DNA of 35,755 nt. It comes from a virus. A program made the translations under genes and the position numbers. The notes beneath the pieces are model-generated. The model was not told the DNA's origin. It did no database searches and saw nothing but the letters and a program-made list of their open reading frames with translations. The stretch lies in the IMG/VR virus record IMGVR_UViG_3300048833_000092, positions 1-35,755 of that record. One strand, written 5' to 3'. Positions 202 to 35,755 of this stretch are shown one piece after another; positions within the stretch are counted from its first letter, which is position 1; each line of letters begins with the position of its first letter.

Positions 202-621
202 TCAGGCCGCGACGGTCGAGGCCTGCATAGCGATCCAGTCGCGGATCACGTGGATCGTGACGTCGAGTTCGTGGGCTATCGCGGCCAGGTGGGGGCCGCG
301 GAGATCCTCGGCGGCCGCGTACTCATCCGCGCTGATCAGAGTCCGTGCTGTAGCCCGTCGTGCCAGCTGCTCCTGCCGGTGAGTGATCAGCCCCCACGGG
401 CTCGGAACGTCGCCCGCGACGGCGTGCTGCAACTCGTGGGTGAGAACCGAACGGGCCTCCCTGTGGCTCATCCGCGGGGCCAGGAGGATCAGCTGCTCGC
501 GGTGCCAGTACTCGCCGCGGTGCCCGTGGCGGAGTCGACGCTCGACGACCTCGAGCCCGAGGTCGTGCGCGACCTGCCACGGGTCGTAGTTCTTGCCCAT
601 CCCCCGACGCCCTTCCGTCAC
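202..621 (-). CDS. ImmA/IrrE-family metalloprotease
   Basis: This is a 139-residue protein with the zinc-protease motif HELQH at residues 62-66, preceded by a helix with conserved Ser-Val-Leu-Thr. ImmA/IrrE proteins are cytosolic zinc proteases that inactivate a cognate phage or element repressor, usually after DNA damage. The gene directly follows the repressor and overlaps its stop codon (GTGA), which implies translational coupling and a repressor/anti-repressor pair. The GTG at 621 is used here because of that overlap. An ATG at 600 (MGKNYDP) with a GGAAGG about 10 nt upstream is an equally plausible start. The protein is short for the family and lacks a fused HTH domain, as expected when the repressor is separate. 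Confidence 0.85.
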   Translation of the reverse strand: MTEGRRGMGKNYDPWQVAHDLGLEVVERRLRHGHRGEYWHREQLILLAPRMSHREARSVLTHELQHAVAGDVPSPWGLITHRQEQLARRATARTLISADEYAAAEDLRGPHLAAIAHELDVTIHVIRDWIAMQASTVAA

Positions 622-953
622 GCGCTGTCGTAGTCGCCTTCGTCGGTCCCGTCTCGGCCTTCTGCTGCGGCCGCATAGTCATCCTGTGCTGGGGGTAGGA
701 CAACGGGGGCTGCGGCCTCTGCCAGGGCGACTAGGTCACTGGCGCTGAGCCTGAACACGTCCGCGACGGCGTCGACTTCGACGATGTTCCAGGACCGCTC
801 TCGGCGCAGCAGGTAGCCGAGCCGCCCGACCTTGATGCCGCAGGCCTGGGAGAGGGTCTTGGTGTCCATGTCCCTGCGCGCCATGAGCACCTTGACCTCG
901 GTGCTGATCGCTTGCGAGAGCCAGGACACCGCTGGCTTGGACGCCTTGCTCAT
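618..953 (-). CDS. HTH immunity repressor (CI-like)
   Basis: This is a 111-residue protein with an XRE-like helix-turn-helix over about residues 16-72 and an acidic, Ala-rich tail ending GDYDSA. It is read away from the Cro-like gene, the classical CI position, and it is followed by an ImmA/IrrE protease. The frame extends upstream to an ATG at 1007, but the ATG at 953 is preferred. A promoter with TTGCGG and TACCGT boxes places transcription start at about 953, and the longer start would overlap that promoter and the operator dyad. The N-terminal HTH region aligns with the Cro-like protein at about 18 of 59 positions by eye, including the shared Ser-Thr-Glu, Val-Ala-Asp and Asp-Leu stretches. 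It is expected to bind the dyads at 957-974 and 1003-1035. Confidence 0.8.
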   Translation of the reverse strand: MSKASKPAVSWLSQAISTEVKVLMARRDMDTKTLSQACGIKVGRLGYLLRRERSWNIVEVDAVADVFRLSASDLVALAEAAAPVVLPPAQDDYAAAAEGRDGTDEGDYDSA

Positions 954-956
954 GAC

Positions 957-974
957 GTCACGGTACGCCGTGAC
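957..974. promoter_or_regulatory. Operator candidate, dyad GTCACGG-N4-CCGTGAC
   Basis: This is a perfect 7-bp inverted repeat with a 4-bp centre, lying between the repressor start and its -35 box and covering the repressor -10 box. It is flanked on the left by the 8-bp palindrome TGACGTCA (953-960), which overlaps the repressor start codon. An inverted partner of that element (GACGTCA) occurs at 1000-1006. The symmetry and position are those of a lambdoid-type operator. Confidence 0.6.
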
Positions 975-989
975 ACGCGGAATCCGCAA
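960..989 (-). promoter_or_regulatory. Predicted leftward promoter of the repressor, leaderless
   Basis: Read on the reverse strand, a TTGCGG -35 box (989-984) and a TACCGT -10 box (965-960) are separated by 18 bp. The -10 box ends 6 nt before the repressor ATG at 953, so the transcript should begin at or next to the start codon. No Shine-Dalgarno sequence precedes that ATG. The -10 lies inside the 957-974 dyad, so a bound repressor or Cro-like protein would block it. Confidence 0.55.
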
Positions 990-994
990 TGTCG

Positions 995-1023
995 TTGCAG
1001 ACGTCATAAGCGTGATGTACGGT
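995..1023 (+). promoter_or_regulatory. Predicted rightward early promoter, leaderless
   Basis: TTGCAG (995-1000) and TACGGT (1018-1023) are separated by 17 bp. The distance from the -10 box to the ATG at 1031 is 7 nt, which would make the Cro-like message leaderless. No ribosome-binding site is present upstream of 1031. The -10 box lies between and partly inside the arms of the 1003-1035 inverted repeat. Confidence 0.55.
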
Positions 1024-1035
1024 CACGGTTATGAC
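1003..1035. promoter_or_regulatory. Operator candidate, 13-bp near-perfect inverted repeat
   Basis: The arms 1003-1015 (GTCATAAGCGTGA) and 1023-1035 (TCACGGTTATGAC) pair at 12 of 13 positions around a 7-bp centre. Each arm is itself close to GTCA-N6-TGA(C/T), so the site may hold two dimers. It covers the -10 box and the first codons of the Cro-like gene. Binding here would shut off the early operon and could affect translation initiation. Confidence 0.6.
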
Positions 1036-1249
1036 GATCAACCAAGGGGTGAGCACGGAAATCCGTGTGCTCCTCGCGCGGCACGGCCGCACTCAGGCCG
1101 ATCTCGCCGACTACCTCGGGCTGAGCGCGTTCGCCGTCTCCCGCCGCATGACAGGCGCCATCACCTGGGACGTGGGCGAGCTTCAGCAGGTCGCTGACTA
1201 CTTCCGCGTCGCAGTGCGAGATCTGCTGCCGAAGCAGGAGGCGTCATGA
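1031..1249 (+). CDS. Cro-like HTH regulator
   Basis: This is a 72-residue protein that is essentially one helix-turn-helix domain (Gln-Ala-Asp-Leu-Ala-Asp-Tyr-Leu-Gly-Leu-Ser at about residues 22-32). It is divergent from the repressor and is the first gene of the rightward operon, the position of Cro or an early activator. It resembles the repressor over its whole length, so both probably read the same operators. The start ATG lies inside the inverted repeat at 1003-1035 and has no Shine-Dalgarno sequence, consistent with leaderless translation. Its stop overlaps the next start (ATGA). Confidence 0.75.
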   Translation: MTINQGVSTEIRVLLARHGRTQADLADYLGLSAFAVSRRMTGAITWDVGELQQVADYFRVAVRDLLPKQEAS

Positions 1250-4517: not shown

Positions 4518-5356
4518 CCACCACCCAGCAGGCCCTCGCCAAGGTCGATCAGACCCCCACCGCGATGGTCGAGAAGTACCGCGACGACTTCGCCCAGCTC
4601 CTGCCCTCGCACGTCAACGTCGACACGTGGATCCGCCTGGCGACTGGTGCGCTGCGCCGCGACCCGAACCTTGCGCTCGCCGCCCGCCAGTCGCCCGGCA
4701 GCTTCATGCAGGCCCTCTCCGACGCCGCCCGCCGCGGCCTCGAACCCGGCACCGAGCAGTACTACCTGACCCCGCGCAAGGTGAAGGGCCAGTGGGAAGT
4801 ACTCGGCATCGTCGGCTACCAGGGCCTCATCGAGCTGATCTACCGCGCCGGTGCCGTCTCCAGTGTCGTCGCGGAGATCGTCTACACGGGCGACACGTTC
4901 GACTACCAGCCCGGCCGCGACGACCGCCCCACGCATCGCGTCGACTGGGACGCCGCCGATCGTGGCGCCCTGCGCCTGGTCTACGCCTACGCCGTCATGA
5001 AGGACGGAGCCACCTCGAAGGTCGTCGTCCTCAACCGCCACGACATCGACCGGATCAAGGCGTCCAGCGCGTCCGCCGGCTCCCAGTACTCCCCATGGAA
5101 GACCCACGAGGGCGCCATGTGGCTGAAGTCCGCCGTCCGCCAGCTCGCCAAGTGGGTGCCCACGTCCGCGGAGTACATCACCGAGCAGCTGCGCGCCGTT
5201 CAGAAGGCCCACGCCGCCGTCGCCTCCGATACCGCGACCGTGCCGCTTGGTGACCTGCTCGCCGACGCCGACGACCCGCGCTATGACGACGAGGCCGGCC
5301 TGTGCCTCGACGACGTCGTCGACGCGGACATCGTGGACGAGGACGGCGCCGCATGA
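4514..5356 (+). CDS. recT: RecT-family single-strand annealing protein
   Basis: This 280-residue protein has the RecT family pattern: an N-terminal helical segment (MTTTQQALAK), the LARRDPNL/FMQALSDAARRGLEPGTEQYYL region at about residues 55-85, and the IVGYQGLIELIYRAG block at about 99-113. RecT proteins anneal complementary strands produced by a partner exonuclease, here the YqaJ-type protein encoded just before. The acidic C-terminus (Asp/Glu-rich) may be the SSB-like or partner-docking tail. It starts at the ATGA overlap at 4514. Confidence 0.9.
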   Translation: MTTTQQALAKVDQTPTAMVEKYRDDFAQLLPSHVNVDTWIRLATGALRRDPNLALAARQSPGSFMQALSDAARRGLEPGTEQYYLTPRKVKGQWEVLGIVGYQGLIELIYRAGAVSSVVAEIVYTGDTFDYQPGRDDRPTHRVDWDAADRGALRLVYAYAVMKDGATSKVVVLNRHDIDRIKASSASAGSQYSPWKTHEGAMWLKSAVRQLAKWVPTSAEYITEQLRAVQKAHAAVASDTATVPLGDLLADADDPRYDDEAGLCLDDVVDADIVDEDGAA

Positions 5357-6138
5357 GCACGACCACCATCGACGTCGACGCCGACAGCGTCGACACCATC
5401 GCCGAGAAGCTGCAGCAGGTTGTCGAGCGGATCGGCGGCCCGGCCCCGATCGGCACCGTCAAGGTCGGCGCCGAGAAACTGATCCCAGCCTTGCGGGCCT
5501 GCCTGCCGCACGCCGCGACTGACCCCGAGCTGCCGTCGATCCGTCGGCTCCGCGTCGCCGTCAACGACGGACTCCTCGTCTGGTGCACCGACCGGTACAC
5601 CGCCGCAGTCGCCCACATCCCCGCGGACGACCTGCCGGACTACGACGGCAGCATCTGGGAGTTCGACCTGCTCCCCGAGGACGCGAAGCTGCTGGTGTCG
5701 ATGTTCACCCCGGGCAAGGACGAGGTCATCACCGTCGAGATCACCGCCACACGGGAGCAGGTCACGGTCGCTGACGTGTCCGGCCTGTTCGAGGGCCGCG
5801 TCGTGTCCGTGCCCCATCCCGGTGGCGGCGAGGCGATGCCGGCCATCCCCGCCCTGGTCCGCACCTCCCTGACGTCGACTCGCGGCAAGGGCACGGCCGC
5901 GCACTGGGTGTTCGGCGGCGACAAGTGGCGCCGCTTCACCACCAGCGCCGCCGTCCTGAAGGAGCCCATGGTCATCGAACCCGGCGTCAACAAGCTGTCC
6001 CCGTTCGTGGTGCGGCTCGGGGGGCACTTCATCGGCCTGGTCATGCCCATGACTGTCGAGGACGACGGCACGCAGCGCGACATCCGCGACGAGTGGATCG
6101 ACCGGCTGCCCGAGCGCGCCGAGGAGGCTTCCGCATGA
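5353..6138 (+). CDS. Sliding-clamp-like protein (DNA polymerase III beta fold)
   Basis: This is a 261-residue protein. The C-terminal pattern (Phe-Thr-Thr-Ser-Ala-Ala-Val-Leu-Lys, then Phe-Ile-Gly-Leu-Val-Met-Pro-Met) resembles the last domain of beta clamps, where a Met-Pro-Met motif closes the partner-binding pocket. It is shorter than bacterial DnaN (about 370 residues) and seems to have two domains. No polymerase gene is present, so it may replace or compete with the host clamp, or bring recombination enzymes to the fork. It lies between recT and the ParB-like gene with overlaps on both sides. The assignment rests on the C-terminal pattern and context. Confidence 0.55.
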   Translation: MSTTTIDVDADSVDTIAEKLQQVVERIGGPAPIGTVKVGAEKLIPALRACLPHAATDPELPSIRRLRVAVNDGLLVWCTDRYTAAVAHIPADDLPDYDGSIWEFDLLPEDAKLLVSMFTPGKDEVITVEITATREQVTVADVSGLFEGRVVSVPHPGGGEAMPAIPALVRTSLTSTRGKGTAAHWVFGGDKWRRFTTSAAVLKEPMVIEPGVNKLSPFVVRLGGHFIGLVMPMTVEDDGTQRDIRDEWIDRLPERAEEASA

Positions 6139-12578: not shown

Positions 12579-12627
12579 CAATGTCCGATTTGCACGCTAC
12601 CGTTCTCACATTGGCGCAGTGCGCCCC

Positions 12628-12658
12628 AAGCCCCGACCACCACCCCCGGTCGGGGCTT
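12628..12658 (+). terminator. Terminator-like hairpin closing the early region
   Basis: A perfect 11-bp stem (AAGCCCCGACC at 12628-12638 with GGTCGGGGCTT at 12648-12658) surrounds a 9-nt C-rich loop. The A/T at the stem base makes it symmetrical, so it may work in both directions. It lies in the 101-bp gap between the zinc-HTH gene and the glycosyltransferase gene. It likely insulates the sugar cassette from early transcription. Confidence 0.6.
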
Positions 12659-12679
12659 CACCATCACCGGAGGAAACCT

Positions 12680-13642
12680 GTGAGGATCCTCGCCTGGGTG
12701 CACCTGTACCCGCCGGACCACTGCGCCGGCGCCGAGATGATGCTCCACGAGATCCTCACCGACCTCCAAGCACGCGGCCACGAAACCCACGTCGTCTGCG
12801 ACGCCAGCAGCACCGACGAGTTCGACGGTGTCCCCGTCACAGCGCGCAACAACCTGAACACACACCAGCGGGACACCCTCGTCGACTGGGCCGACATCGT
12901 CGTCACCCACCTCGACCGCACTCGCGACGCGATCACCACCGTCGCACGCCGACGGCCGATCGTGCACCTGGTCCACAACGACAGGCAGCTCCGCTTCCAC
13001 CGCGTCCGCCCCAACGACGCCCAACTCGTCGTCGCCAACAGCCAATGGATCGCCAAGGCCATCCGCTGGCCCGGCCCAAGCATCGTCGTCCGCCCACCCG
13101 TGCACCCCGACCGGCACCACGTCGACCGGCCCGCCGCCCAGGCCTGCACCCTGGTCAACCTCTCACAGGCCAAAGGCGCCGACACGTTCTGGGCACTCGC
13201 CCACGCCATGCCCGACCAGCAGTTCCTCGGCGTCGTCGGCGGCTACGGCAAGCAGGAAATCCCCGCCACCGTCCCCGACAACGTGACCGTCATCCCGCAC
13301 GGCCCCGACATGCGAGCCGTCTACCGACAGACCCGCATCCTCCTCGCCCCGTCCGCTTACGAGTCCTGGGGCCGCGTCGGAATCGAAGCAGCCGCCTCCG
13401 GCATCCCCACCATCGCCCACCCCACCCCCGGCCTCCTGGAATCACTCCGCGGCGCCGGAACGTTCGTCGACCGCGACGACATCACCGGATGGGCCAGCGA
13501 GATCCGCACCCTGGCCGACCCGGACATCTACGCCGCCCGCTCCCGCCAAGCCCTCGCCCGATCCGTCGAACTCGACCCCACGCCCGACATGGACCGGCTC
13601 GAGGCCGCCATGGCCTCCTGCATCACGAAGGTGAACGCCTGA
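12680..13642 (+). CDS. GT4-like glycosyltransferase
   Basis: This is a 320-residue protein from a GTG with AGGAAA 5 nt upstream. It has the GT-B fold pattern: the N-terminal VRILAWVHLYPPDHCAGAE (acceptor side, Gly-Ala-Glu) and the C-terminal ESWGRVGIEAAASGIPTIA at about 230-248, the Glu-x7-Glu nucleotide-sugar motif of GT4. It transfers a sugar from a nucleotide donor to an unknown acceptor. It forms an operon with a methyltransferase and a second glycosyltransferase. Likely targets are a virion protein, DNA or a host envelope sugar. Confidence 0.75.
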   Translation: MRILAWVHLYPPDHCAGAEMMLHEILTDLQARGHETHVVCDASSTDEFDGVPVTARNNLNTHQRDTLVDWADIVVTHLDRTRDAITTVARRRPIVHLVHNDRQLRFHRVRPNDAQLVVANSQWIAKAIRWPGPSIVVRPPVHPDRHHVDRPAAQACTLVNLSQAKGADTFWALAHAMPDQQFLGVVGGYGKQEIPATVPDNVTVIPHGPDMRAVYRQTRILLAPSAYESWGRVGIEAAASGIPTIAHPTPGLLESLRGAGTFVDRDDITGWASEIRTLADPDIYAARSRQALARSVELDPTPDMDRLEAAMASCITKVNA

Positions 13643-14157: not shown

Positions 14158-14774
14158 GACTGTCCGTGGCCGTCATGGCCCACGTCGACCGCCTCGACCA
14201 GGCGCAGCGACTCGCCCGAGCCACCGGCGCCAGCCTCGCCGTCGACGACGGCCGCCGCGGCGAGAACGCCAACGGCGACTGGGCCTGGCGCGAACACGAC
14301 CGGGACTCGGATTGGGCGCTGACCCTGCAGGACGACGCCCAACCCGTCGACGACCTCCTGAACCACGTGGCCGCCGCCCTCGAGCACGCACCCCGCACCG
14401 CCGTCTCCCTCTACGTCGGCACCGGCCGCCCCAAGCAGCCCGCCGTCGAAGCCGCCGTCCACACCGCCACCGCCACCGGAGCCGCCTGGCTCGAACACCC
14501 CACCCTCCTGTGGGGCGTCGCCGTCGCCATGCCAACCGACCACATCACCCCCTTCCTCACCTGGGCCCGAACCAACCACCTGCCCTACGACAAGCGGATC
14601 GGCGCCTACTGGCAACGCGCCCGCATCCCCGTCCGCTACACGTGGCCCTCACTCGTCGACCACGCCGACGGACCCACCCTCGTCAAGCACCCCTGGGGCC
14701 CGCCACGGGCACCGCGGCGGGCCTGGAGGGTCGGCATACCCGACCGCTGGGACACGCCCGTGGTGAGGATCTAA
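14154..14774 (+). CDS. GT-A-like glycosyltransferase
   Basis: This is a 206-residue protein with a central Trp-Ala-Leu-Thr-Leu-Gln-Asp-Asp-Ala-Gln-Pro-Val (about residues 56-67) in the place of the DxD motif of GT-A enzymes. Downstream, LLWGVAVAMP and a C-terminal region of basic and aromatic residues follow. I have seen similar short proteins called glycosyltransferase in actinophages. The start is the GTG at 14154 in a GTGA overlap. Its end overlaps the HNH gene, tying the cassette to the packaging genes. Confidence 0.55.
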   Translation: MRLSVAVMAHVDRLDQAQRLARATGASLAVDDGRRGENANGDWAWREHDRDSDWALTLQDDAQPVDDLLNHVAAALEHAPRTAVSLYVGTGRPKQPAVEAAVHTATATGAAWLEHPTLLWGVAVAMPTDHITPFLTWARTNHLPYDKRIGAYWQRARIPVRYTWPSLVDHADGPTLVKHPWGPPRAPRRAWRVGIPDRWDTPVVRI

Positions 14775-15058
14775 TGGCCAACAACCCGCGCCGAGCCAAC
14801 GGGACACGCCGTAACCGGCTACGCCGCCGCATCCTCACCGAAGAGTCCGACTGCGCCATCTGCGGCCAACCAGTCGACAAGACCATCCCCTACCCAGACC
14901 CCTGGTCACCCACCATCGACGAGATCGTCCCCGTCAGCCTCGGCGGCGACCCCCTCGACCGAGCCAACTGCCGCCTCGCCCACTTCCGCTGCAACGTCCA
15001 ACGCGGCAACGGCACCAAGCCCACACCTCAATCCGTCAAGCGGGTCCGCGCCTACTGA
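14774..15058 (+). CDS. HNH endonuclease next to terminase
   Basis: This is a 94-residue protein with Cys27-Ala-Ile-Cys30, Asp-Glu-Ile-Val-Pro-Val-Ser-Leu-Gly-Gly at about 49-58 and a C-terminal Asn...His-Phe-Arg-Cys-Asn. This is the zinc-bound beta-beta-alpha metal fold. The place just before the terminase genes is typical. HNH proteins in this position assist terminase in cutting cos ends in several phages (HK97-like). It starts at a TAATG overlap with the glycosyltransferase gene. Confidence 0.85.
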   Translation: MANNPRRANGTRRNRLRRRILTEESDCAICGQPVDKTIPYPDPWSPTIDEIVPVSLGGDPLDRANCRLAHFRCNVQRGNGTKPTPQSVKRVRAY

Positions 15059-31213: not shown

Positions 31214-31824
31214 TGGCGTTCAGTGACGACCTGCGCAAGGCCCTGATCCGCGAGTTCGGGAAGGGCAACGTCGTCTTCCTGCCGCGCTGGTCGACGATCC
31301 GTAACGGCACCGACTGGCGCGGACCCACCCGGCGACCGCTCGCCCTGCTGCTGCACCACACCGCAGGCGCCGTGACCGACTCCACGAACCCGAAGCACCC
31401 CGGCAACCAGCGCGGCGCCAACAAGGGCCAGGTGGACTTCGTCCAGTCGCACTACCGGGTCCCCGCCGCCAACTTCACCCTCGACCGCGACGGCACCCTC
31501 TACGTCCACAACGCCTACCCGATCTGGCACGCCGGCCTCGGCTCCTTCAAGGGCAAGCGCCCCTGGTCGGCACTGGGCATCCCCGACAACCTCGGGAACA
31601 ACTACATGCTCGGCGTCGAGATCGTCTCCAAGGGCCGCAAGCCCGACTTCACGCAGGCGCAGAAGGACGGTGTCGCGCAGCTGCTCCGCGCGTGCGCGGA
31701 CGCCTGCGGGTGGGAGCCACCGACCGGCGCCAAGTCCCTGCTCCGCCGCCCCCGGCACAAGGACTGGACGGGCCGCAAGCCCGACATCGTCTACTCGCAG
31801 GCCGAGATCCGCGGCTGGCTGTAG
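31213..31824 (+). CDS. Endolysin, N-acetylmuramoyl-L-alanine amidase
   Basis: This is a 203-residue protein with the Amidase_2 signature. His48/His49 lie in LLLHHTAG, Glu136 in VEI, and His182-Lys-Asp-Trp-Thr-Gly-Arg-Lys-Pro-Asp191 supplies the remaining zinc and catalytic residues. It cleaves the bond between N-acetylmuramic acid and L-alanine in peptidoglycan. No wall-binding repeat is attached. The ATG at 31213 overlaps the holin stop; a GTG three nt earlier is possible. Confidence 0.9.
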   Translation: MAFSDDLRKALIREFGKGNVVFLPRWSTIRNGTDWRGPTRRPLALLLHHTAGAVTDSTNPKHPGNQRGANKGQVDFVQSHYRVPAANFTLDRDGTLYVHNAYPIWHAGLGSFKGKRPWSALGIPDNLGNNYMLGVEIVSKGRKPDFTQAQKDGVAQLLRACADACGWEPPTGAKSLLRRPRHKDWTGRKPDIVYSQAEIRGWL

Positions 31825-31826
31825 CC

Positions 31827-32024
31827 GTGGTCCACGACCGGCTCTGCCCGCTCGACCCGCTGCCCGCCGACGACTGCGAGATCTGCGCGGGCCTCAAGGC
31901 CGCCCGCGACGAGGTCCGCGCCGAGCTGAACGACACATGGCAGCACGCACTGCGGGAGAACGAGAAGCGGGCCTACGCCCGCGGCTGGCAGGACGGCGCG
32001 AACGGCAAGCCAGCAGCGCCCTGA
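31827..32024 (+). CDS. Small Cys-containing protein after the endolysin
   Basis: This is a 65-residue protein from a GTG 3 nt after the endolysin stop. The N-terminus has Cys-Pro-Leu-Asp, then Cys-Glu-Ile-Cys (about residue 17-20), compatible with a zinc site, followed by a long basic/acidic helix. Similar short proteins follow endolysin genes in several actinophages, with unknown role. Confidence 0.6.
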   Translation: MVHDRLCPLDPLPADDCEICAGLKAARDEVRAELNDTWQHALRENEKRAYARGWQDGANGKPAAP

Positions 32025-32086
32025 GAGCACCCGCGTCGGGAAGCGCGGAGGCCCGGTCGGACACGAGCGGCGACCGGGATAGACGA

Positions 32087-32118
32087 CACCCCCCATCGGC
32101 TACGGCCGGTGGGGGGTG
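32087..32118 (+). terminator. Strong terminator ending the late operon
   Basis: A stem of 13 pairs (CACCCCCCATCGG at 32087-32099 with CCGGTGGGGGGTG at 32106-32118, one G-U pair) closes a 6-nt loop and is followed by CTTCGTCGTGT. It lies 62 nt after the last lysis-cassette gene. It is the natural end of the late transcript. Confidence 0.75.
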
Positions 32119-32240
32119 CTTCGTCGTGTCAGGGTCCACGACCACCCCACGGTAAGCCGGGCACTGTTCATCGGCACGCCGGCCTGACCGCCGCTGGCCG
32201 GGGCCTTGGTGCGTCCCGTCCGCGGCGTCGTAGGGTGGAC

Positions 32241-32282
32241 GGGCGAGGGCCGTACTCCTCCCCCGTTGTGCGGCCCTCGCCC
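32241..32282. repeat. Perfect 12-bp inverted repeat, terminator or att-linked
   Basis: The arms GGGCGAGGGCCG (32241-32252) and CGGCCCTCGCCC (32271-32282) flank an 18-nt loop. It stands 39 bp before the accessory promoter. It may be a second terminator that shields the accessory genes. A structural role at an integration site is possible, but no core repeat is seen at the left edge. Confidence 0.45.
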
Positions 32283-32320
32283 CCGATTCGCACTGAGTTA
32301 CGTTTCGCGAGGTCAACCGC

Positions 32321-32350
32321 TGGACATGGCGATTTTCTTGCGTTTATTAT
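32321..32350 (+). promoter_or_regulatory. Predicted strong promoter of the accessory module, leaderless
   Basis: TGGACA (32321-32326) and TATTAT (32345-32350), separated by 18 bp, match the sigma-70-like consensus at 5 of 6 and 5 of 6 positions (TTGACA/TATAAT). The -10 box is 6 nt before the ATG at 32357, so translation should be leaderless. The region is much more AT-rich than its surroundings. The late terminator upstream makes the module independent of phage transcription. Confidence 0.65.
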
Positions 32351-32356
32351 TCACGC

Positions 32357-32947
32357 ATGGTGCACCCATCGAGTGAAGAGCGCGAGCGGCTTCTGGCGAT
32401 TGCGAGGGAGATCCGCGACACCGGGGAGGAGTCCGGCTACGCCGTCGACGAGGCCATCGCCCGGCACGAAGCGTTCTCACGCGGCCGTGCACCGGCTAAT
32501 GCGCTCGAAAGGTCGCTCATCGTCGAGGCCGCTGAGCGCGGCGCCCATGCCGCTGGCATGCATTCCAAGGCCCGCACCGGCGGCCTCGAACTGATCTCCT
32601 CCGATCGTGGGTCGGAGATCCGATACCGCGTCAAGCGCGGAAGGCCGAATAAGTCCGGAGACATCGAGTTCATCTGCGCAAGCCAGTCCTCGCTCCTCGT
32701 CAGCGACCCTGACACTCTGATCCCTTGCGAGAAGTGGATCCTCGGCTATGACGTCGACGAGAACCATGCCCTGACCGCACTGCTCGCTGGCCGCATTGTG
32801 TCTTGGACGGGCGACGGGCCTGTAACCCTGATTCTCGACAGCGTCATCGACCTGATGGAGACGCCCCCGCCTTCGGGCTTCGTTTCGACAGACGAGGGGC
32901 TGGAAGGATTCGGCGACGACTTCGGGGAGGAGTCCGGCCTCGGTTAG
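32357..32947 (+). CDS. Unknown protein, first gene of accessory two-gene module
   Basis: This is a 196-residue protein I do not recognise. Residues 1-55 are helical and charged, with EERERLLAIAREIRDTG. The middle part (about 75-155) is probably an alpha/beta domain with a Cys at about 110 and 127. The C-terminus is acidic and Gly-rich, with FGDDFGEESGLG. It has no signal peptide or membrane segment. The ATG is at the predicted transcription start and has no ribosome-binding site. It is 28 bp upstream of the XRE-ImmA/IrrE gene, in the way toxin/antitoxin or sensor/regulator pairs are arranged. Confidence 0.65.
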   Translation: MVHPSSEERERLLAIAREIRDTGEESGYAVDEAIARHEAFSRGRAPANALERSLIVEAAERGAHAAGMHSKARTGGLELISSDRGSEIRYRVKRGRPNKSGDIEFICASQSSLLVSDPDTLIPCEKWILGYDVDENHALTALLAGRIVSWTGDGPVTLILDSVIDLMETPPPSGFVSTDEGLEGFGDDFGEESGLG

Positions 32948-32975
32948 GGACGCAGCTACCAGGAAGGATTCCCAA

Positions 32976-34115
32976 ATGTTCAGCCCCACCACGGTTGGTG
33001 AGCGCGTCCGCACCCTTCGCACAGCCTCCAACCAGACCCAGGCAACTCTCGCCCAGAGGCTCCTGCTCCGAGGAGAGACGGCCAACACCCTCGTCTCGCG
33101 CATCGAGGCTGGCCGCCAGGCCCTTGACGAAGCCCTGGTGGAGCGACTCGCGAACGCACTGCAGTGCACGCCGGAGTACCTCACCAGGCCAACCAGCGAT
33201 GTTCTGGCCACGCGGCCTTGGCTGCGGGCCTACGCAGACGCGTCTCCTCGAGTACTCGAAAGCGTTCTTGCGGACAACCTGCTCGCCTATGAAGCCATCA
33301 CGCAGCTGCAACTCAAGCGAATCCCGGACGCCGTTCCGGCCTTTGCAGACGACGCGAATGACGACGACGCGATCGAGGAGTTCGCCTACTACGTGCGGCA
33401 AGTGGCAAGCGTTGCCGATGGCGCTGCAGTGGGCAACGTGATTCGTGCAGCCGAACGTCTGGGATGCGTGGTCCTGCCCCTAGACAACGAGCTCGGGCGT
33501 CACCTGGGCCTGTCGCAGCGCGTTAATGGGGTTCCCTTCATCCGGGTTAGCCGGCCGGGAGGAGGCGGCAGCCCGATTCCTGGGGACCGACAGCGGTTCA
33601 CGGTCGCCCACGAAATCGGTCACCTCACGCTGCATCACGGCCAACGCCCTCCCGAGACCGCCGATGAGGCGCGCCTCGTTGAGAAGCAAGCTCACCGGTT
33701 CGCCAGCGCGTTCCTCGCCCCAGCAGGGCCGCTCGTTGATGACTGGCAGGCTCTCGGCGGGCGCGTCACCCTGAACGCCCTCGCCGAACTCAAGAGCCAC
33801 TGGGGATTGTCGATCAAGGCCCTCGTGGTCAGGTTCCAGCAACTCGGAATCATTGGCAGCGAGCAGGCCACCAGCCTCTACAAGCAGATCTCTAAGCGCG
33901 GATGGAACAAGAACGAGCCGGTCCACACAACCAACGAGACAGCCATCTGGCTCCAGATGGCGTTGCAGACAGGTGAGCACGCCCGCTACACCCCGGCTCA
34001 ACTCAGGGAGATTTCGGGGCTGGACCCCAGTTACTTCGCTCGCTGGTCTAACTGGGACGCGGACGTTGAGCAACTCGCGGACGTCATAGCCTTCACGCCG
34101 CGTGCCTCTCGGTGA
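32976..34115 (+). CDS. XRE-ImmA/IrrE regulatory metalloprotease
   Basis: This is a 379-residue protein with two modules. An XRE helix-turn-helix covers residues about 5-75 (VRTLRTASNQTQATLAQRL, then SRIEAGRQ). An ImmA/IrrE zinc protease domain has HEIGH at 212-216 followed by LTLHH and a later EKQAHRFASAFLAPA (third ligand helix, about 236-250). Such fused proteins cut or switch a partner regulator, or act as antitoxins (COG2856 class). AGGAAGG is 8 nt before the ATG. The C-terminal 100 residues (after about 280) do not belong to either domain. Confidence 0.85.
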   Translation: MFSPTTVGERVRTLRTASNQTQATLAQRLLLRGETANTLVSRIEAGRQALDEALVERLANALQCTPEYLTRPTSDVLATRPWLRAYADASPRVLESVLADNLLAYEAITQLQLKRIPDAVPAFADDANDDDAIEEFAYYVRQVASVADGAAVGNVIRAAERLGCVVLPLDNELGRHLGLSQRVNGVPFIRVSRPGGGGSPIPGDRQRFTVAHEIGHLTLHHGQRPPETADEARLVEKQAHRFASAFLAPAGPLVDDWQALGGRVTLNALAELKSHWGLSIKALVVRFQQLGIIGSEQATSLYKQISKRGWNKNEPVHTTNETAIWLQMALQTGEHARYTPAQLREISGLDPSYFARWSNWDADVEQLADVIAFTPRASR

Positions 34116-34186
34116 CGCCGCCTCGGGTGGGTGAGGACCAGCAGCTCGTGCTCGCCTGTCGCCGTGCCTGCTGGGTTGGTTCAGGT

Positions 34187-34366
34187 CTACGCGGGCGGGT
34201 CACCAGGCCCGACCCAGTAGAACTGCCAGTCCACGTGGCCGTCGAGTCGCGGACGCGTGATGTTCTCGGGAGCAGGCGCCCAGCCCGCCTCCCGCTGCCG
34301 CGCTATGAAGTCGGTCGTCGGTTCGCTCGGATCCCAGACCAGCATCCGCATGATTGGCTCGGTCAC
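34187..34366 (-). CDS. 59-residue reverse-strand protein
   Basis: The frame runs from GTG at 34366 to TAG at 34187 on the reverse strand. GGAGG is 6 nt before the start. The protein starts MTEPIMRMLVWDPSEPTTDF, with several Trp/Tyr, and ends DWQFYWVGPGDPPA. The composition is that of a real soluble protein, not of an antisense shadow. It is convergent to the XRE-ImmA gene and divergent from the DUF3263-like gene. The rest of the 34116-34446 gap holds nothing else I can name. The function is unknown. Confidence 0.6.
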   Translation of the reverse strand: MTEPIMRMLVWDPSEPTTDFIARQREAGWAPAPENITRPRLDGHVDWQFYWVGPGDPPA

Positions 34367-34446
34367 CAGGGGCCTCCGTTTGCCTGGGAGCCTCGACGCT
34401 ACGCCGATCCGCCGGCAGTGTCAGCCCGTCGCGTCATCCTTAACCC

Positions 34447-34695
34447 ATGGCACTGACCGACACTGACCGCGCGCTCCTGGACTTCGCCGGCCGCTGGTAC
34501 CGGTACCCCGGCGCCCAGGAACAGGCCATGCGCGACGAGCTCGGACTGTCAGCCACCAGCTACTGGCGGCGGGTCAACGCCCTCATCGACCGGCCCGACG
34601 CGCTCGCCTACGCGCCGACCACCGTCGCCCGGCTCCGACGCCTGCGAGCCGCACGGCTAGGCGCCCGGTCGGTCAGAGCACCTCTGGCCGGATGA
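34447..34695 (+). CDS. DUF3263-family protein
   Basis: This is an 82-residue protein with the DUF3263 pattern: LLDFAGRWYRYPGAQEQAMRDELGLSATSYWRRVNALIDRPDALAYAPTTVARLRRLRAARL-like order, in which Trp-Tyr, Gly-x-x-Glu, Leu-Gly-Leu-Ser and Arg-Leu-Arg-Arg are diagnostic. The family is confined to Actinobacteria, looks like a small HTH protein and has no proven function. No clear ribosome-binding site precedes the ATG. Its 3' end overlaps the convergent HsdR-N-like gene by 23 bp. Confidence 0.75.
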   Translation: MALTDTDRALLDFAGRWYRYPGAQEQAMRDELGLSATSYWRRVNALIDRPDALAYAPTTVARLRRLRAARLGARSVRAPLAG

Positions 34696-35539
34696 CCTCG
34701 GCCCTCAGCACGGCTGTCACCTTGTCCGCATCTGCGTTGTGGCCAGTCTGACGACGCAGCTCCTTGCGGATCTCCTCGATGACCTTGTCGCTGAGGAGGA
34801 CCTTGGCCAGTGACTTCGGTGAGGTCGCGGCCTGCGCCTTCCACAGCTCGTCAATCTGGTGCCTCTTGAGGGCGTCACGGCTCAGGTAGAACAGGGCGTT
34901 CGCCTTGACCGCCACGGACTCATCGGACAGCAGGTCAACCTCGAGGGCCTTGTCCATCGTGACCGGTAGCCCTGGGGTCATGTGCCAGACCTGCCACACC
35001 TGACCGTTGGTCAGGATCATCCACTCGACACCCTCGTTGACGGCGTACGACTGGACCTGCCGCAGGTGCTTCTCGTTGAGTTTCTGCGCCACTCGCTTGA
35101 CCTCAATGAAGGCCATGAGTTGCTTGTCGACTCGGACGCCGTAGTCGGCGAACTCGCCCTTGACCTGGTACTCGGTTGTGAGGTCCTCGTACTTGTCGAA
35201 GCCCAGGCCGTCGCAGAGGAAGTCGGTCACGAGGAGTCTCGTGTCGCCCTCGTTCGCATCACGGGCAAGGAGGTCTGCGAGCGGTTTCTGGAACCTTCGG
35301 ACGGCGGCCTTGACTCGGTCGCGGGCCTCGGTTTCCCACTTGGGCGCCGCTCGGGGGGCCTTGGGAACGGTCACCTCGGGGGAGGTGGAGGCCTTGGATC
35401 CATCCAGATCACCCGCCGGGGCCTGCCCGTTCGGGGTGACTGCTCCGAGGGCATCGGCCGGGTCAGGCGTGAGATCGGCCTCGGCTGGGACCGCCGCGCC
35501 GGCGGCCGACCAGGTGGGAACGTCAGGACTCTCAGTCAC
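34673..35539 (-). CDS. Stand-alone HsdR N-terminal-like nuclease protein
   Basis: This is a 288-residue protein. The N-terminal 70 residues are Ala/Pro/Thr-rich and likely disordered. The following domain (about 75-220) matches the type I restriction enzyme R N-terminal nuclease: helix with TRLLVTDFLCDGLGFDKY, then TEYQVKGEFADYGVRVDKQLMAFIEVKRV (Asp...Glu-Val-Lys), then LRQVQSYAVNEGVEWMILTNGQVWQVW. No helicase motor follows, and no HsdM or HsdS is in the window. A possible role is DNA degradation or nucleic-acid binding in defence. The GTG at 35539 with AGGGGAG upstream is preferred over the ATG at 35575. Confidence 0.75.
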   Translation of the reverse strand: MTESPDVPTWSAAGAAVPAEADLTPDPADALGAVTPNGQAPAGDLDGSKASTSPEVTVPKAPRAAPKWETEARDRVKAAVRRFQKPLADLLARDANEGDTRLLVTDFLCDGLGFDKYEDLTTEYQVKGEFADYGVRVDKQLMAFIEVKRVAQKLNEKHLRQVQSYAVNEGVEWMILTNGQVWQVWHMTPGLPVTMDKALEVDLLSDESVAVKANALFYLSRDALKRHQIDELWKAQAATSPKSLAKVLLSDKVIEEIRKELRRQTGHNADADKVTAVLRAEVIRPEVL

Positions 35540-35755
35540 GGTGTCTCCCCTTCTGCAGTGACGATGCGCAAGCACACTAGGGCAAAACGGGCGCCGTAGG
35601 TCCGGGTTACACGAACCTGGCGGGGTTTCGGCGGACGTTCACGGTGATGACCGCTGGACTGGTCACTGCGCTCTGGTTGGTCGCGGATGACCAACTGACC
35701 GCGGTGCTCAGCCGGGCGATCGGCTCGGTCACGGCCCCGTGACCCGTGATCGCGG
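35540..35755. other. Gene-free right edge with several dyads
   Basis: This is the leader of the HsdR-N-like gene plus sequence of unclear nature. A possible reverse-strand -10 box TAGTGT lies at 35574-35579. Dyads are GGTT-ACACG-AACC near 35607-35619, GTTGGTC-N6-GACCAAC near 35676-35695, and the perfect GGTCACGG-CC-CCGTGACC at 35727-35744. No convincing gene is seen, but a frame at 35648-35743 is open. Confidence 0.4.

Follow-up and report, generated by a model that had tools for sequence, protein, structure and literature searches.

A probable RosmerTA-type toxin-antitoxin module with an apparently new toxin family as cargo of a phage

Two adjacent genes that follow the lysis genes of a virus record (IMGVR_UViG_3300048833_000092) raise the question of whether they form a toxin-antitoxin system, a regulatory pair or a chance neighbourhood of an ordinary phage protein and an HTH-protease. 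The whole linear record of 35,755 bases was analysed and is referred to here as the window; the host of the phage is probably actinobacterial. The evidence points to phage cargo of the RosmerTA type, with the first gene product, P0001, as the toxin of a new family and the second, P0002, as its antitoxin, a reading that we consider probable.

Layout and position of the module

The first-pass annotation had described two open reading frames 28 bp apart behind an isolated promoter, and this description holds: both reading frames are present on the plus strand with that spacing (Table 1), the promoter TGGACA-18-TATTAT is the only sigma-70-like promoter in the 2.9 kb from 31800 to 34700, for which shuffled sequences predict 0.3, and two strong hairpins, far more stable than shuffled sequence, precede it. 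Since only 6 nt separate the end of the -10 box from the ATG of P0001, too few to accommodate a Shine-Dalgarno site, the sequence can fairly be read as giving a leaderless or near-leaderless mRNA; relatives of the module share this arrangement of promoter and start codon. Hairpin I2 possibly marks the end of the late transcript and hairpin I1 possibly insulates the module on its upstream side, a terminator role that we infer, as neither hairpin carries a U-tract.

Table 1. Coordinates in the window of the module, its associated elements and further genes
Feature	Position	Strand	Description
Inverted repeat I2	32087..32118		14-nt arms, 4-nt loop; RNA fold -39.9 kcal/mol, z -6.6
Inverted repeat I1	32241..32282		15-nt arms; -36.2 kcal/mol, z -6.0
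Sigma-70-like promoter TGGACA-18-TATTAT	32321..32350	+	10/12 matches
Short inverted repeat TGCGT-N9-ACGCA	32339..32357		Over -10 box to start codon; 5-bp arms, may be chance
P0001	32357..32947	+	Putative Rosmer-type toxin (divergent RmrT, family C); 196 aa, ATG start
P0002	32976..34115	+	XRE HTH + ImmA/IrrE (M78) antitoxin, putative autorepressor, RmrA family; 379 aa, ATG start
ImmA-type metalloprotease	205..621	-	Separate protein, left end
Repressor	621..1007	-	
Cro-like HTH gene	1031..1249	+	Divergent from repressor
Glycosyltransferase-like gene	12587..13639		phrog_2170, moron category, 4.1e-10
HNH-like ORF	about 14700..15058		By eye
DUF3263 gene	34447..34695		Adjoins the HsdR-like gene
HsdR N-terminal-like gene	34673..35575	-	300 aa, right end; HSDR_N_2 2.5e-7, phrog_17239 1.8e-57

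Upstream of the module, the gene of an amidase endolysin ends at 31824 and is followed by one small conserved gene (to 32024), and the G+C content, about 0.70 across the lysis region, is lower in the module, at about 0.64-0.65. A sister phage, whose endolysin is 72% identical, keeps the small gene and carries other genes thereafter. None of 23 related phage records that share the capsid or endolysin, some of them fragments, encodes a match to P0001, while the same P0001 model detects the family in 15 of 16 genomes of the clade. The site after the lysis genes is cargo-like and the module behaves as mobile cargo; the cargo position proposed at first pass therefore stands, one small gene past the endolysin. 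The term prophage goes further than the record, which is linear and contains no match to the integrase families PF00589 or PF00239, although its left end carries a repressor, an ImmA-type protease and a Cro-like gene.

Several other genes of the window were recorded in addition to the module. The protease, repressor and Cro-like genes at the left end are likely to form a protease-controlled lysogeny switch, so that the phage holds two ImmA-type proteases. At the right end, a protein with a domain resembling the N-terminus of type I restriction HsdR is encoded next to a DUF3263 gene, and a glycosyltransferase-like gene lies between the replication genes and the terminase, followed by an HNH-like reading frame. 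The protein encoded at 5353-6135 was considered as a phage sliding clamp and rejected, as Pfam gives no support and its PHROGs family is RusA-like. The window contains no Rfam family and no tRNA. A capsid gene at 4806-5705 of a 5.7-kb IMG/VR contig (3300048586; L182) encodes a protein 100% identical to that of the window, indicating that the same phage is present in another sample.

The antitoxin and its conserved partner

P0002 is a fused HTH and M78 protein (PF13560 7.4e-8; PF06114 3.8e-12), as the first-pass annotation had proposed, and its zinc motif HExxH is intact (HEIGH) and conserved among relatives. Fourteen PADLOC RmrA models match it, with PDLC03953 at the top (2.7e-53, residues 5-336), and it thus shows the XRE HTH, the ImmA/IrrE domain and the RmrA match of a RosmerTA antitoxin. 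Additionally, it belongs to phrog_2439 (3.8e-55) and matches part of the NCBIfam model NF052239 for the spr1629/RipB antitoxin (2.1e-22, below the cut-off). P0001, by comparison, has no match in Pfam, PHROGs (best 0.065), NCBIfam, PADLOC (E up to 1, hence no known RmrT model) or PDB sequences. In RosmerTA, 'different toxins (RmrTs)' are paired with an ImmA-containing antitoxin (PMC10440598), so that a match to an RmrT model defines a toxin family and not the system.

Scans of genome contigs, viral contigs, phages and plasmids with P0001 alone (by tblastn for phages and plasmids) returned no relatives, nor did a scan of viral contigs with P0002 alone; relatives were reached only with an alignment of RmrA relatives (A1), which yielded 80 genome loci. 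Sixteen of these encode antitoxins 46-54% identical to P0002. In ten of the sixteen, the gene immediately before the antitoxin encodes a P0001 homologue (tblastn E 6e-22 to 5e-11), and the upstream reading frames of L015, L023, L024 and L026 also belong to the P0001 family. The remaining two, L021 and L027, were left out of the count because their contigs start inside or just before the antitoxin gene; the L027 genome encodes a P0001 homologue on another contig, and the L021 genome, in which the antitoxin gene begins at the contig edge, has none. The pair is therefore kept in 14 of the 14 loci whose contig covers the place, and P0001 and P0002 are adjacent partners with conserved pairing, which is what the first-pass annotation had expected a neighbourhood search to show if the genes formed a toxin-antitoxin or defence-like pair. 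Counts that include the members already known indicate that the P0001 family, termed family C, is rare: it occurs in 2 of 396 Actinomycetota genomes and, in two order samples, in 3 of 396 (one marginal) and 5 of 399. Inspection by eye of the bacterial neighbourhoods found resolvase-like proteins in L018, L020 and L023, an IS110-like transposase in L015 and a relaxase-like protein in L026. In the Actinomycetota MAG L024, the Rosmer module is immediately preceded by another XRE-ImmA-like gene and its PIN-like partner (636-2323), by eye an arrangement of stacked toxin-antitoxin pairs.

The reading frames upstream of RmrA fall into family A (32 members), family B (21) and family C (15, including P0001), plus stray reading frames. 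In a maximum-likelihood tree of 68 antitoxins, the partners of the three families form separate branches with support of 99-100, and the upstream family changes only twice on the whole tree, against a mean of 30 after shuffling; toxin family and antitoxin are thus deeply co-inherited. With midpoint rooting, the antitoxins of family B form the sister group to those of family C. Among 135 more distant RmrA loci, 40 have no upstream reading frame by a crude rule, so that the wider superfamily does not show the upstream arrangement throughout. Family B includes the PADLOC family RmrT PDLC03939, with scores of 5.8e-71 for a Streptomyces plasmid member, 2e-18 for Curtobacterium and 2.7e-12 for Gordonia phage Opie.

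Profile comparison suggests that the upstream proteins of the three families are remotely homologous, which we regard as supported but not proven. The global hhalign scores (C-B 24.0, C-A 23.1, A-B 23.0) lie well apart from column-shuffled controls (up to 8.5 overall and 7.7 for C-B) and from unrelated RmrA segments (no higher than 4.5); the local scores (24.7, 29.7 and 27.7) are above their shuffles, yet one unrelated comparison reaches 21.2. The reserve follows from the low listed probabilities among the families, only 6-28% (C-B 25%), and from HMMER, which found nothing significant between families A, B and C. By eye, families B and C have in common a tail F.PTDE.L followed by acidic residues. 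Based on the conserved pairing, the one-to-one match of upstream families and antitoxin clades, the RmrT carried by the sister clade and the profile comparison, P0001 is read as a putative divergent Rosmer toxin. Since the PADLOC RmrT models are blind to P0001, surveys that require both genes would miss this branch or call a lone regulator.

The first-pass annotation had ranked the locus as the strongest candidate for an undescribed system, but the system is a described one: the antitoxin is a PADLOC RmrA and the layout is that of published RosmerTA, so that toxin family C and the operator-like repeat described below are what looks new, as far as searched. One close counterpart is the RosmerTA type found on a Streptomyces plasmid and in Gordonia phage Opie (RmrT PDLC03939), which shares the gene order with a toxin-sized reading frame directly upstream, an RmrA-type XRE and M78 antitoxin from the sister clade and an acidic C-terminal tail of the toxin. 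It differs in that HMMER does not detect P0001 as an RmrT, in that the antitoxins are only about 30-36% identical, and in that most family B loci overlap, whereas the window genes lie 28 bp apart. Gordonia phage Kita carries a RosmerTA (RmrT-D5/RmrA-D25) validated as a toxin-antitoxin and anti-phage system with a membrane-depolarising toxin (PMC10440598); it resembles the window pair by description, as an actinobacteriophage-borne pair with an ImmA-type antitoxin, although its toxin has a predicted membrane region and Kita is not among the matches of the RmrA queries. In Streptococcus pneumoniae, RipA/RipB (Spr1630/Spr1629) is a Rosmer pair with an XRE-ImmA antitoxin, and DnaN is the proposed target of its toxin (PMC12795458); the likeness comes from the antitoxin side, and RipA, unlike P0001, has a supported target. 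ImmR/ImmA of ICEBs1 and CapH/CapP also couple an M78 protease with an HTH regulator, but keep the two as separate proteins, whereas P0002 fuses both and its partner is a protein of a third kind: neither Pfam nor PHROGs gives an HTH match for P0001, so a pair of separate HTH repressor and separate ImmA protease is not what the module encodes. Strong divergence is known for Rosmer homologues, with toxins 11% identical in S. thermophilus (PMC12322248), and RosmerTA ranks with the commonest defence systems of actinobacterial prophages (PMC10023795).

An operator-like repeat in the relatives

Eleven of 14 relatives carry an inverted repeat, TGTGACAT-N22-23-ATGTCACA (at most 3 mismatches in 16), that brackets the -10 region of the promoter. 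By shuffling, the arms reach p <=0.05 in 13 of the 14, nine of which were never equalled in 200 shuffles. In L015, L017, L018, L022 and L025 the right arm, on the ATGTCACA side, is the toxin start codon itself (ATG TCA CA, encoding M-S-H), and in L020 the left arm TGTGACAT is perfect and the right arm poor. The repeat is absent from L012 and from the module in the window, which appears to have lost it, and the antitoxins of these same two loci carry extra residues within the HTH recognition region. This coincidence fits a partnership of HTH and operator but amounts to only two cases, from neighbouring tree branches (support 81/87). The short repeat TGCGT-N9-ACGCA is a weak candidate for an operator of the window's own. 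As the operator of the relatives is missing there, autoregulation in the window is extrapolated from the relatives; for RipAB it has been stated merely that autoregulation cannot be excluded (PMC12795458).

Competing readings, fold and possible target

Some of this evidence could also be taken to describe a regulatory pair, in which P0002 is a signal-sensing repressor of the protease type and P0001 its co-regulator or substrate, together controlling phage or host genes in the manner of ImmR/ImmA or IrrE/DdrO. The PHROGs label of the P0002 family, 'transcriptional regulator', agrees with such a role, as do the XRE-M78 fusion and the conserved promoter-overlapping repeat of the relatives, and a split repressor and ImmA-type protease (205-1007) already serve this phage. 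That separate switch, however, makes a second one unnecessary, and the module lies at the other end of the window from it, is absent from the 23 related phage records, stands beside mobile-element genes in bacteria and has a sister antitoxin clade that pairs with a PADLOC RmrT; we consider a purely regulatory pair unlikely. That P0001 is an ordinary structural or lysis-linked phage protein which happens to precede an HTH-protease gene would agree with its place after the lysis genes on the same strand, but is hardly credible given its own promoter, its absence from all 23 records that share the capsid or endolysin, and its homologues in bacterial genomes, which invariably accompany one antitoxin clade and in several cases neighbour mobile-element genes. 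The structure prediction called for at first pass likewise returned no ordinary morphogenesis fold and a PD-(D/E)XK-like model instead.

This AlphaFold2 model, built with the 15-member alignment (pLDDT 81, pTM 0.74; the sequence alone gave an uninformative pLDDT of 39), has two long helices, six strands and a disordered acidic tail. Nearly all of its best 50 VIA-align alignments are to PD-(D/E)XK nucleases (Z 5.2-7.8 over 98-154 residues), among them NaeI, SfiI, EcoRV, SwaI, DpnI, HincII, BglI, BcnI and Hjc, which would suit a restriction-type nuclease effector that cuts DNA and is restrained by P0002. The best Foldseek E-value is only 0.03, a search against viral models found nothing, and a resemblance at Z under 8 may be merely a common arrangement. 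In the 15-member alignment, moreover, the catalytic D...(D/E)xK is not conserved in strands 2-3, where the invariant R91 is found instead, and E21 in the first helix is the sole acidic residue among invariant or nearly invariant columns. Nuclease activity is set back because the catalytic residues are wanting, and we judge it improbable.

Since RipA is proposed to act on DnaN, replication serves as a first guess for the target of P0001, held with low confidence. A specific version, in which P0001 uses a QxxL[FL]-like peptide to bind the sliding clamp and thereby stalls replication, the mode of action proposed for RipA, appears rather unlikely. It draws on dnaN mutations in the protein-binding pocket that suppress RipA toxicity (PMC12795458), on motif-like pentapeptides that are enriched in family A (10 of 26, 2.1 expected) and family B (5 of 15, 1.2 expected), and on QSSLL at residues 110-114 of P0001. 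Against it, the motif is not conserved in family C (1 of 13, 0.8 expected), the scoring is post hoc and self-made with matches at differing positions, and the Kita RmrT, another Rosmer toxin, depolarises membranes (PMC10440598). Peptides of the QLxLF type, four- to fivefold over shuffles in families A and B by this post hoc count (e.g. QLTLF in L083, QFVLF in L044 and QLALW in L033), may relate to the action of RipA on DnaN.

For a RosmerTA-type module, the following course of events would be expected. Bound around the -10 box and start codon, the HTH domain of P0002 would repress the module's own near-leaderless promoter and so limit expression, and the P0002 protein would also neutralise P0001. 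That the protease releases or inactivates its partner, as suggested at first pass, is a conjecture. A competing phage or another stress would disturb P0002, through loss of repression, binding or M78 function, and freed P0001 would halt the cell, thereby protecting the carrier population and stabilising the element. A bolder proposal, which we put forward tentatively and with considerable doubt, is that P0001 founds a previously unrecognised Rosmer toxin family within a single superfamily of families A, B and C, composed of non-catalytic, degenerate PD-(D/E)XK-like proteins that would, for example, clamp replication factors, and that in most of the family expression is under an operator which includes the toxin start codon. 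If this is true, a repressor on such an operator would lie over the transcription start and, at the same time, over the initiation region of the leaderless mRNA. The exact match of antitoxin clade and toxin family allows co-evolution of the two Rosmer partners to be tested, and the operator-like repeat over the start codon offers a concrete handle on how Rosmer pairs stay silent.
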